From contig JANXOV010000042.1 of assembly GCA_025357635.1 (NCBI GenBank), positions 1 to 64,000 on the forward strand: 64,000 nucleotides of DNA. Reading direction: 5' to 3'. How positions within the stretch are numbered: position 1 is the stretch's first letter; each line of letters starts with the position of its first letter. Origin of the DNA: Pseudomonadota bacterium (GTDB lineage: Bacteria > Pseudomonadota > Gammaproteobacteria > Steroidobacterales > Steroidobacteraceae). Made by a program: the position numbers and the translations under genes. Positions 11,741-22,017 of the stretch are shown in pieces. Below the pieces are notes generated by a model. That model made no database searches and was not told where the DNA came from. It worked only from the letters and a program-made list of their open reading frames with translations.

Positions 11741-11940
11741 CCTCTGTCCTTTCAACCTGAGAGATCGAGCGAGACGGCGGCATCAAGCCTGCGGCTCACT
11801 GTTCCCCTTCGGTGGGTACGGCCTGTGCCGTACCGCTCTCCAGAGATCGCGAGAGACTGCCGTTCATGTGCCTGAGCGTTTGTCGGGCGTTTGCGCCTTC
11901 GGCGGTCTTTGAGTGAACAAAGACTCTCTCCGGACAGCTC
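11741..11940 (-). promoter_or_regulatory. Tandem glycine riboswitch
   Basis: Two consecutive glycine aptamers read on the minus strand. The first (about 11940-11850) shows GGAGAGAG, CGCCGAAGGCGCAAA and CTCAGGCACATGAACGG. The second (about 11850-11741) shows CTCTGGAGAGCGG, CACCGAAGGGG and CTCTCAGGTTGAAAGGACAG. These are the conserved cores of the gcvT RNA family. The second aptamer ends 48 nt before the gcvT start. A hairpin at 11719-11738 (7-bp stem, 5-nt loop) with no U-tract lies in between and may belong to the expression platform. Confidence 0.95.
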
Positions 11941-11956
11941 TTGTCGCGATGCGGAC

Positions 11957-19824: not shown

Positions 19825-19869
19825 GCAACTGGGCTCCCCTCTTCGCGAGAAGTCGATCAAGTTTGGCGT

Positions 19870-20048
19870 CATCTGCGGTGTTCGAAGCGGGCTGGGTAAC
19901 CTCCTGACCCTAATTTGTAAACCCCAGGGGCTATTGCTTGCTGGCAACATTGTGCAAGTCCGCCTTGAGCGGAAAGCCTTAAATGCCGCAGTGGGCCCCA
20001 CCTGTTGCTCAGGTCGGGAGCAACGGTCCAACACGGCACAGGCGGATG
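19870..20048 (+). ncRNA. ssrS: 6S RNA
   Basis: About 179 nt between zapA and the 5-FCL gene. The ends pair: CATCTGC at 19870-19876 with GCGGATG at 20042-20048. Conserved 6S-like blocks include GTTCGAAGCGGGCTGGG near the 5' side and AAAGCCTTAAATGCCGCAG near 19974-19992. 6S RNA mimics an open promoter and sequesters sigma70 RNA polymerase in stationary phase. Position and core motifs support the call; the exact ends are estimates from the closing stem. Confidence 0.88.
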
Positions 20049-20061
20049 GCGCCATCTCCAC

Positions 20062-20658
20062 ATGAGTGGACTCAAATCCAACCTGCGAGGATCGCTGATC
20101 GCGCGCCGGCGCGCGATCCCGCGCGCCGATCGAGTGCGCGCCTCGCGGCGCATCGCAGCCGTGGTCAACGGCCTTCGACAGTTCAAGCCCGGCGCGCGCG
20201 TGGCCATCTACGCCTCCTTCGGCAGCGAATTCGATCCGGCGCCGGTAGTGCGTGAAGCCAGACGACGCGGCATCTGTCTGTACGTGCCGGTGGTCGTCGA
20301 TCTGCCCCGCCGTCGCATGCGCTTCATCGCCCTGAGCCCGGGAATCAAACCCGGCATCGAGCGCACACCCGGCAATGTCGGCGCCATGCGATTCGTTCCC
20401 GCGCGCTGGTTCAACCTCATCCTGTTGCCCATCGTCGGCATCGACACGCGTGGTCATCGCCTCGGGATGGGCGCAGGCTTCTACGATCGCGCGCTGGCCT
20501 TTCGCCGGTTGCGCCGGCGATGGATGGGGCCGCGCCTGATCGCCCTGGGTTTCGATTGCCAGCGGGTGGACTGCGTCCATGCCCAGGCGTGGGATGCGCG
20601 GCTCGACGCCCTCATCACCGAATCCGGTCTTCACCTTTTTCACACGGGCGATTCATGA
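20062..20658 (+). CDS. 5-formyltetrahydrofolate cyclo-ligase
   Basis: A 198-aa YgfA/MTHFS-family enzyme that converts 5-formyl-THF to 5,10-methenyl-THF using ATP. It shows an N-terminal basic RRRAIPRADRVRAS region, the substrate loop GIERTPG and the signature LGMGAGFYDRAL. The ATG at 20062 lies 14 nt beyond the 6S RNA end, matching the E. coli ssrS-ygfA arrangement. The stop overlaps the start of the EVE-domain gene (ATGA). Confidence 0.92.
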   Translation: MSGLKSNLRGSLIARRRAIPRADRVRASRRIAAVVNGLRQFKPGARVAIYASFGSEFDPAPVVREARRRGICLYVPVVVDLPRRRMRFIALSPGIKPGIERTPGNVGAMRFVPARWFNLILLPIVGIDTRGHRLGMGAGFYDRALAFRRLRRRWMGPRLIALGFDCQRVDCVHAQAWDARLDALITESGLHLFHTGDS

Positions 20659-21119
20659 ACCATTGGCTATTCAAGTCCGAGCCGGACACCTTCGGCATCC
20701 AGGACCTGGCGAAGGCGCCGAAGCAGCGCACCGCCTGGGACGGCGTGCGCAACTACCAGGCGCGCAACATGCTTCGCGACAGCATAAAACAAGGTGATTT
20801 AGGGCTTTTTTACCATTCCAGCTGCGCCGTGCCCGGCATCGCCGGCATCGTCGAGATCGTGAAGGAGGGATACCCCGACGCGACCGCGTTCGATCCGAAG
20901 CATCATCACTACGACCCCGACAGCATGCGAGGGGAGCCGCGCTGGTATGTCGTGGATATGAAGCTGGTGAGGTCGACCCGGCGCATCATCGAGCTTTCGG
21001 AACTGCGCGCGCATGAGAACAAATCATTGCAGGATCTGATCCTCCTGCGTCGCGGAAATCGTTTGTCGGTGATGCCGGTGACGAAGAAAGAATGGGACTT
21101 CATTGTCTCGCTCGAGTGA
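20655..21119 (+). CDS. EVE-domain (PUA-like) protein
   Basis: A 154-aa single EVE domain. The hallmark segments are HWLFKSEPDTF at the start, WDGVRNYQARN and GLFYHSS, which form the cage thought to bind modified bases. EVE proteins appear alone, as here, or fused to restriction and translation-related domains. The ATG overlaps the stop of the 5-FCL gene. No restriction genes are nearby. Confidence 0.92.
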   Translation: MNHWLFKSEPDTFGIQDLAKAPKQRTAWDGVRNYQARNMLRDSIKQGDLGLFYHSSCAVPGIAGIVEIVKEGYPDATAFDPKHHHYDPDSMRGEPRWYVVDMKLVRSTRRIIELSELRAHENKSLQDLILLRRGNRLSVMPVTKKEWDFIVSLE

Positions 21120-21159
21120 GCGCCTATCACATTCAAACAACAGAAGCGCTATGTATCGC

Positions 21160-21187
21160 TTGTAATTTGATGATTCGTGTATATACT
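21160..21187 (+). promoter_or_regulatory. Promoter of the Lys/Ala-rich peptide gene
   Basis: TTGTAA at 21160-21165 and TATACT at 21182-21187 with a 16-nt spacer, in a locally AT-rich stretch that stands out from the high-GC surroundings. It gives a leader of about 30 nt to the ATG at 21225. Confidence 0.6.
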
Positions 21188-21224
21188 CGGTCCCCGGACT
21201 AACCCGACTACGGAGTTTTATATC

Positions 21225-21290
21225 ATGGCAGCAAAAGCAAAGAAGGCTAAGAAGAAGGTCGCTAAGAAAAAGGCCGCGAAGAAAAAGTAA
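21225..21290 (+). CDS. 21-residue lysine/alanine-rich basic peptide
   Basis: A 21-codon frame that starts [12 protein letters not shown] and continues as Lys/Ala repeats to the end; it contains only Met, Ala, Lys and Val. GGAG lies 10 nt upstream of the ATG. It has its own promoter (21160-21187) and a strong intrinsic terminator (21307-21341). The composition resembles histone H1-like or HU-tail sequences, suggesting nucleic-acid binding. Codons alternate AAG/AAA and GCA/GCT/GCG, so this is not a simple DNA repeat. Function unknown; the isolated transcription unit supports a real gene. Confidence 0.75.
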
Positions 21291-21306
21291 GCCTTCGTCG
21301 AGTAAT

Positions 21307-21341
21307 CAACTGTGCCCGCGTAAGCGGGCACAGTTGTTTCT
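21307..21341 (+). terminator. Intrinsic terminator after the KA-peptide gene
   Basis: A 13-bp perfect stem (CAACTGTGCCCGC with GCGGGCACAGTTG) closed by a GTAA tetraloop and followed by TTTCT. It isolates the peptide gene from rpiA, whose ATG is 14 nt downstream. Confidence 0.9.
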
Positions 21342-21354
21342 GGGGGTCGAAAAA

Positions 21355-22017
21355 ATGACGAGTCAGGATGAAAAGAAACGCAATGTCGCCGAAGCCGCTG
21401 TCGCCTTCGTCGATGAATCAATGATCCTGGGAGTGGGCACCGGCTCCACCGTCAACTTCTTTCTCGCCGCGCTCAATGCCCATAAAATAAGGCCTTTAGG
21501 CGCGGTCTCGAGCTCTTCCGCCAGCAGTGCGCTGCTGCGTGAAGCGCGCATCGAGGAGATCGATCTGAACAGCGCCGGCGACCTGGAGGTGTACATCGAC
21601 GGGGCCGACGAGGCGACGCGCAGCGGTGCGCTGATCAAGGGCGGCGGCGGCGCCCTGACCCGGGAGAAGATCGTCGCCGCCGCATCGAAGCGGTTCATCT
21701 GCATGGTCGACGACAGCAAGATCGTAAGGACCCTCGGCCGGTTCCCGCTCCCCATCGAAGTGATCCCCATGGCACGGTCCTACGTTGCGCGCAAACTCGT
21801 GGCACTCGGCGGCCAGCCGGTGTGGCGTGAAGACATGATCACCGACAACGGCAATCAGATCCTGGACGTGCACAACCTCGCAATTGTCGACCCGGTCACA
21901 CTCGAGTCCACCATCGGCGCCATCGCCGGCGTGGTCAGCGTCGGGTTGTTTGCGCGGCGCGGCGCCGATGTCCTGCTGGTGGGATCCGCTTCCGGGGTGG
22001 AAACGATCCGCTTGTAG
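21355..22017 (+). CDS. rpiA: Ribose-5-phosphate isomerase A
   Basis: A 220-aa enzyme interconverting ribose-5-phosphate and ribulose-5-phosphate. Motifs are GVGTGSTVN, the SSSASSALL loop, DGADEAT and [13 protein letters not shown] start at the ATG at 21355; an earlier in-frame TTG falls inside the terminator stem. Since the terminator ends 14 nt upstream, rpiA needs terminator read-through or a promoter overlapping the hairpin. Confidence 0.96.

Follow-up and report, generated by a model that had tools for sequence, protein, structure and literature searches.

A conserved miniature lysine/alanine gene between the EVE-domain gene and rpiA in Steroidobacteraceae, a probable short counterpart of H1-like proteins

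Introduction

The described proteins closest to the gene product studied here are the H1-like proteins of Chlamydia and Pseudomonas. Chlamydia Hc2 is reported to be 165-237 aa long, depending on the number of its repeats (PMC2848022). AlgP of Pseudomonas is described as a protein of 352 aa that combines an N-terminal domain, predicted to be helical, with KPAA repeats; its C-terminal peptides containing KPAA were reported to bind DNA, and AlgP itself was reported to localise to polyphosphate granules (PMC9239181).

Here, we analyse a gene for a much shorter peptide, composed almost exclusively of Lys and Ala, in a stretch of 64,000 nucleotides from a bacterium of the family Steroidobacteraceae (GenBank assembly GCA_025357635.1, contig JANXOV010000042.1, positions 1 to 64,000 of the forward strand), referred to below as the window. 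The original prediction, made from the letters of the window, was that of a 21-residue Lys/Ala gene with its own promoter, a GGAG ribosome site, and a 13-bp hairpin. The ORF, a promoter-like site, GGAG, and the hairpin were all located (Table 1), which confirms the observation as such.

Results

Table 1. Position of the Lys/Ala gene, its presumed signals, and neighbouring elements in the window
Feature	Coordinates	Strand	Remarks
Tandem glycine riboswitch	11742-11944	-	two aptamers
6S RNA	19867-20052	+	upstream of the peptide locus
EVE-domain protein	20655-21119	+	upstream neighbour, synteny anchor; PF01878, E 2.4e-53
Promoter-like site	21160-21187	+	TTGTAA 21160-21165, 16-nt spacer, TATACT 21182-21187
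Leader element GGACTAAC	21196-21203	+	near-invariant, near the expected transcription start
Shine-Dalgarno sequence GGAG	21212-21215	+	9 nt before ATG
Lys/Ala peptide ORF	21225-21290	+	21 codons and TAA, stop inside the coordinates
13-bp GC-rich hairpin	21307-21336	+	GTAA loop; then three T only, 21337-21339
rpiA (ribose-5-phosphate isomerase A)	21355-22017	+	downstream neighbour; NF001924, E 1.1e-81

The peptide encoded in the window consists of 12 Lys, 7 Ala, 1 Val, and 1 Met. Farther upstream of the neighbouring EVE gene are two ORFs, which we take to be a 5-formyltetrahydrofolate cyclo-ligase-like and a zapA-like one. The peptide matched no family in Pfam and NCBIfam and, in a sequence search, none of the solved structures, while the region 21160-21345 matched no Rfam family at gathering thresholds. 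A profile built from 16 peptides (A1) missed even the window's own gene and was too insensitive, and its negative results were set aside. The promoter-like site of the window has 9 of 12 matches, which is weak evidence when taken alone, because 0.4 such sites are expected in the 601-base region searched; it is conservation that settles the assignment of the promoter.

A query of Steroidobacteraceae genomes with the EVE protein gave a match in 55 of the 60 genomes sampled, and the flank was read in all 55. The EVE gene is followed by a Lys/Ala ORF in 54 of these 55 genomes, one stretch (L026) being cut by a contig end. In the 55th EVE-bearing genome (G011), as well as in two genomes with no EVE match (G018 and G037), the mini gene was found by its promoter, and in the three stretches long enough it is followed by an RpiA motif. 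Altogether, a Lys/Ala frame of 14-30 aa behind such a promoter is present in 57 of the 60 genomes, and 54 of the 57 have it next to EVE. The promoter pattern had no match in G002, G007, and G058, the genomes of which are 62-82% complete. The search with the pattern of promoter and leader, in which the peptide was not used, yielded at least 119 stretches from named records, and 113 of them contain a complete Lys/Ala ORF; five of the other six show the start of the peptide, followed by the end of the stretch or a run of N, and one (L149) is cut earlier. Loci found with this pattern include those of Steroidobacter agaridevorans, S. gossypii, Peristeroidobacter soli, P. agariperforans, and Povalibacter uvarum, and among 369 genomes of the class, the pattern had three matches, in the three that belong to Steroidobacteraceae. 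Three metagenome records titled Klebsiella pneumoniae (L106), Janthinobacterium lividum (L080), and Candidatus Planktophila lacus (L039) carry the Steroidobacteraceae locus as well, and their titles look wrong.

For the analysis of variation, 174 stretches were reduced to a set of 135 distinct loci: nine had no tiny ORF by the rule applied (L026, L050, L081, L105, L108, and L149 are cut, L123 has a run of N, L147 encodes 61 aa, which exceeds the limit, and L245 has none), and the remaining 165 were collapsed. Peptides of the 135 loci are 14-30 aa long and contain 61.8% Lys and 31.9% Ala (first Met excluded) and 0.1% proline. Lys/Ala-rich repeats extend over the whole of these proteins, and their C-terminal end is AAKKK in 111 and ASKKK in 17 of the 135. 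The 61 aa version of L147, which is outside the 135 count, is encoded behind the same promoter and has extra repeats of the KAKAKVKT type, and thus the length changes by repeat number also inside the family.

Comparison of equal-length pairs from the 135 distinct loci gave a pN/pS of 0.159 in frame vs. 1.11 and 2.16 in the shifted frames. The pairwise differences at codon positions 1, 2, and 3, counted in equal-length groups of the same loci, were 1815, 1524, and 5854, respectively, and one identical 16 aa peptide is encoded by 13 different DNA versions. Judged by this evolutionary evidence, the Lys/Ala frame is a real, conserved gene and is translated. Conservation of the frame in relatives was the proposed check of the original prediction, and the frame is indeed kept (57 of the 60 family genomes, pN/pS 0.16 in frame); the opposite picture, in which the hairpin alone is conserved and the frame is not, is contradicted by the same ratio.

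The -10 sequence is TATACT in 132 and AATACT in 3 of the 135 distinct family loci, and the 6-8 nt that separate it from the leader element have a mean GC content of 85%. A GC-rich stretch after -10 is typical of ribosomal and rRNA promoters. Together with the nature of the product, a pure polycation with no DNA-binding domain, it would suit, rather than a nucleoid protein, a mini-protein associated with the ribosome or rRNA, such as an assembly or stability factor resembling the tiny basic ribosomal proteins. We consider such a role unlikely, as the sequence and length of the peptide vary freely apart from the Lys/Ala content, unlike those of a ribosomal protein with fixed contacts, and the counterparts of the peptide in sister families (see below) are H1-like repeats.

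The leader element has the sequence GGACTAAC in 127 of the 135 distinct loci, GGATTAAC in 6, and GGACTAAT in 2, and this constancy is in part an effect of selection, since many loci were fetched with a pattern containing GGACTAAC. The near-invariance of the element exceeds what a 5' leader seems to need, and it may serve as a binding site or as an initially transcribed element. The GGAG sequence is found at a distance of at most 22 nt from the start codon in all 135 loci.

In the window, the gap between the peptide stop and the hairpin is 16 nt, and the stretch 21195-21345 has a folding z of -3.6. The exact core of the hairpin, GCCCGC..GCGGGC, is present in 130 loci in total, including all 129 with at least 200 nt downstream; as the search demanded the exact core, its six inner pairs are constant by construction, and the finding is that no sufficiently long locus is without it. 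The next two pairs outside the core are paired in all 78 distinct hairpins, with substitutions on both sides (GC, AT, and CG with some GT in one of them; TA, AT, and GC in the other). The outer five pairs hold in 35 to 67 of the 78 hairpins, and therefore not all loci keep the full 13 bp. Upstream of the conserved hairpin, many relatives (L009, L005, L044, L055, and others) have a second, variable inverted repeat of stem-loop-like appearance, which follows the peptide stop.

The presence of GGACTAAC in 127 of 135 loci, although partly due to the way of locus selection, and of the hairpin core in every long-enough locus could indicate that the locus encodes a regulatory or dual-function RNA, of which the leader and the 3' hairpin are the conserved parts, and for which the short frame would be incidental or of secondary importance. 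This explanation appears quite improbable to us, given the strong synonymous bias in the frame, the changes of its length by whole codons, and the existence of versions of the frame with 94-209 codons behind related promoters; a dual role is conceivable.

The U-tract that follows the hairpin is weak. The first four bases past the hairpin are TTTC in 78 of the 130 loci, the following 8 nt contain a mean of 3.6 T, and the hairpin of the window was not reported by a terminator scan with a minimum of 5 T in 8. A run of 6-8 T was found in 13 of the 20 long relatives described below. The RpiA GxGTGST-like motif is encoded 3' of the peptide gene in 129 loci; none of the 127 loci that extend for 500 nt or more beyond the gene lacks it, and the start of rpiA is separated from the hairpin by a median of 34 nt (range -86 to 237, where the start is the first in-frame ATG and negative distances represent starts picked before the hairpin). 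The hairpin is probably a leaky terminator or a 3'-end hairpin before rpiA. The claim of a complete stand-alone transcription unit, which had been made for the window, stands as to its parts, namely, the promoter, GGAG, and the 13-bp hairpin, but not as to their isolation: the hairpin is followed by a weak U-tract and, after 18 nt, by the start of rpiA. Because of this weak U-tract and the regular presence of the RpiA motif at so short a distance, the peptide gene is probably no sealed unit. Little room for a promoter is often left before rpiA, and thus read-through would be the simplest route to rpiA expression.

The same features, i.e., the RpiA motif in all 127 loci, the median distance of 34 nt, and the weak U-tract, could also be ascribed to a leader peptide that controls rpiA via attenuation, with the participation of Lys/Ala codon translation and the hairpin. 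However, the ORFs of 94-209 aa that occupy the same place in sister families greatly exceed the length of a classical leader, the distance from the stop to the hairpin ranges from 15 to 68 nt among the loci listed, and no connection of Lys/Ala with ribose-5-phosphate isomerase is evident, which makes attenuation highly improbable.

Among 59 genomes of the same order, the EVE gene was found in 46, including 40 outside Steroidobacteraceae. It is followed by a long Lys/Ala/Arg-rich H1-like ORF in 28 of these 40 sister-family genomes. Twenty of the long ORFs are complete and encode 94-209 aa (the lengths depend on start codons chosen by a script), seven run into contig ends, and one (L190) has a stop after codon 26 and a Lys-rich frame continuing beyond it. 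The RpiA motif follows 18 of the 20 complete long loci, and the other two are followed by under 180 nt of sequence. The place after EVE and before rpiA is thus common to the genes of the family (54 of 55 EVE genomes) and of the sister families (28 of 40), while in the other 12 sister genomes (families f187, f2, and f193) no Lys/Ala gene follows EVE. Five long proteins were scanned with family models. The protein of L184 matched Pfam HC2 (E 8.7e-8) with 32.9 bits, under the cut-off of 40, and gave weak matches to two H1-like models of NCBIfam; no Pfam or NCBIfam match was obtained for the remaining four, and neither the mini peptide nor any of the five long forms reached the curated cut-off of an HC2-type profile. 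Lys/Ala low-complexity sequence can arise repeatedly, and therefore the homology of the mini and long genes rests on place and promoter and not on peptide alignment.

The relationship of the promoters was assessed with R1, a sequence model of promoter and leader built from 32 mini loci only (A2), the E-values of which come from a shortened, rough calibration. In the window, R1 matched positions 21154-21220 with E 4.1e-18, its sole match there at E <= 5. Of the 69 loci examined with it (all 40 sister and 29 class loci), R1 recognised 19 (E 1.1e-9 to 0.045), and in every case the matched position directly precedes a long H1-like ORF from a sister family. A homologous promoter and leader were thus found in 19 of the 28 long sister loci, with nine missed, and R1 matched none of the 12 sister loci with no Lys/Ala gene and none of the 29 class loci. 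In a scan of 369 genomes of the class, R1 had nine matches at E <= 0.01. The best five (E <= 5.6e-4), in the five genomes of this order, precede three mini and two long Lys/Ala genes, the latter of 123 and 169 aa (G225 and G425), in genomes where EVE was not found or no such gene adjoins it. The other four (E 0.0045-0.0086) have no Lys/Ala ORF after them and were taken as chance matches. The likeness to histone H1 tails, which had been proposed from composition, goes beyond composition, because the corresponding place in sister families is occupied by long H1-like ORFs, many of them with a related promoter.

The long form is rare in Steroidobacteraceae. Pfam HC2 at E <= 0.001 was found in none of the 11 family genomes vs. 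45 of the 86 others of the order; it was above the curated cut-off in 20 of the 97 genomes of the order, and one of 14 control genomes also matches HC2. The query with a long H1-like protein matched in 2 of 40 family genomes (G003 and G027) vs. 30 of 53 sister genomes, the latter figure including the single sister genome from which the query comes and representing its sensitivity. Since the query misses 23 of the 53 sister genomes, the absence of the long form from the family is a rate, not a proof. Both family matches, in G027 (L275) and G003 (L276), lie elsewhere in the genome, besides the mini gene.

Class-level loci were fetched from the best 30 of the 109 genomes with a match, one of which is the window's own. 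In eight of the 29 others, which are outside the order, EVE is followed on the same strand by a K-rich ORF of 65-125 aa, at a distance of 131-1026 nt in the seven that were measured. The presence of these long ORFs makes the long form appear the likelier ancestral one. This link to the outgroup is weaker than that to the sister families, because R1 missed all eight K-rich loci and no RpiA motif follows the K-rich ORF in the seven loci examined. The tree of EVE proteins had no resolution at depth and did not give the direction of change.

Discussion

Results of our analysis indicate, with good confidence, that the gene makes a miniature H1-like polycation of 14-30 aa and about 62% Lys, which is the counterpart, by place and promoter, of the 94-209 aa proteins of sister families. 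This reading follows from the coding conservation, the shared locus of EVE, Lys/Ala gene, hairpin, and rpiA, the related promoter and leader, and the rarity of the long form in the family. The gene may have shrunk in Steroidobacteraceae from a long ancestral form through the loss of xAKKK repeats. Its charge (12 Lys in the window peptide) and its H1-like counterparts suggest that the peptide would act as a disordered counter-ion, binding polyanions such as DNA, RNA, or polyphosphate electrostatically. The GC-rich stretch after -10 would point to a growth-rate-regulated and well-expressed gene, probably with a high copy number of the peptide, and the weak terminator would allow plentiful synthesis of the peptide, with a small fraction of transcripts reading through into rpiA.

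A more far-reaching interpretation can be offered tentatively. The whole family may have swapped an H1-like protein for a chromatin-type polycation of 14-30 aa, free of domains, with the promoter and place kept. Such a polycation could serve, like a polyamine of protein size, to neutralise nucleic acid or polyphosphate, and the leaky terminator could fix its ratio to rpiA, the product of which makes ribose phosphate for nucleotides. With the same reserve, the 14-30 aa form may be smaller than any H1-like protein that we found described; among the papers listed in our search of a mostly open-access literature, none describes an H1-like form of this size.

The mini gene is conserved; its small size probably lets it escape routine annotation, and its simplicity keeps it out of reach of profile searches. 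It may represent a natural minimum for an H1-like tail, and thereby bear on the question of how many Lys/Ala repeats a cell needs, and it gives a hint of the smallest size at which a natural protein may still coat DNA or RNA. As the mini and long forms have related promoters in sister families, the length could be swapped and the effects on the nucleoid, polyphosphate, and growth measured.

The mini form differs from Chlamydia Hc2 in its size (14-30 residues, and 61 in L147, against 165-237) and in matching none of the models. Unlike AlgP, the mini peptide lacks any additional domain and is nearly devoid of proline (0.1%); what it shares with AlgP, as well as with PhaF of Pseudomonas, is the Lys/Ala-rich H1-like tail, which in AlgP has KPAA repeats. 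With the HC2 and Burkholderia H1-like type (PF07382, NF038053, and NF038052), it has in common the Lys/Ala repeats of 4-5 residues, the expected disorder, and the variation of length by repeat number.
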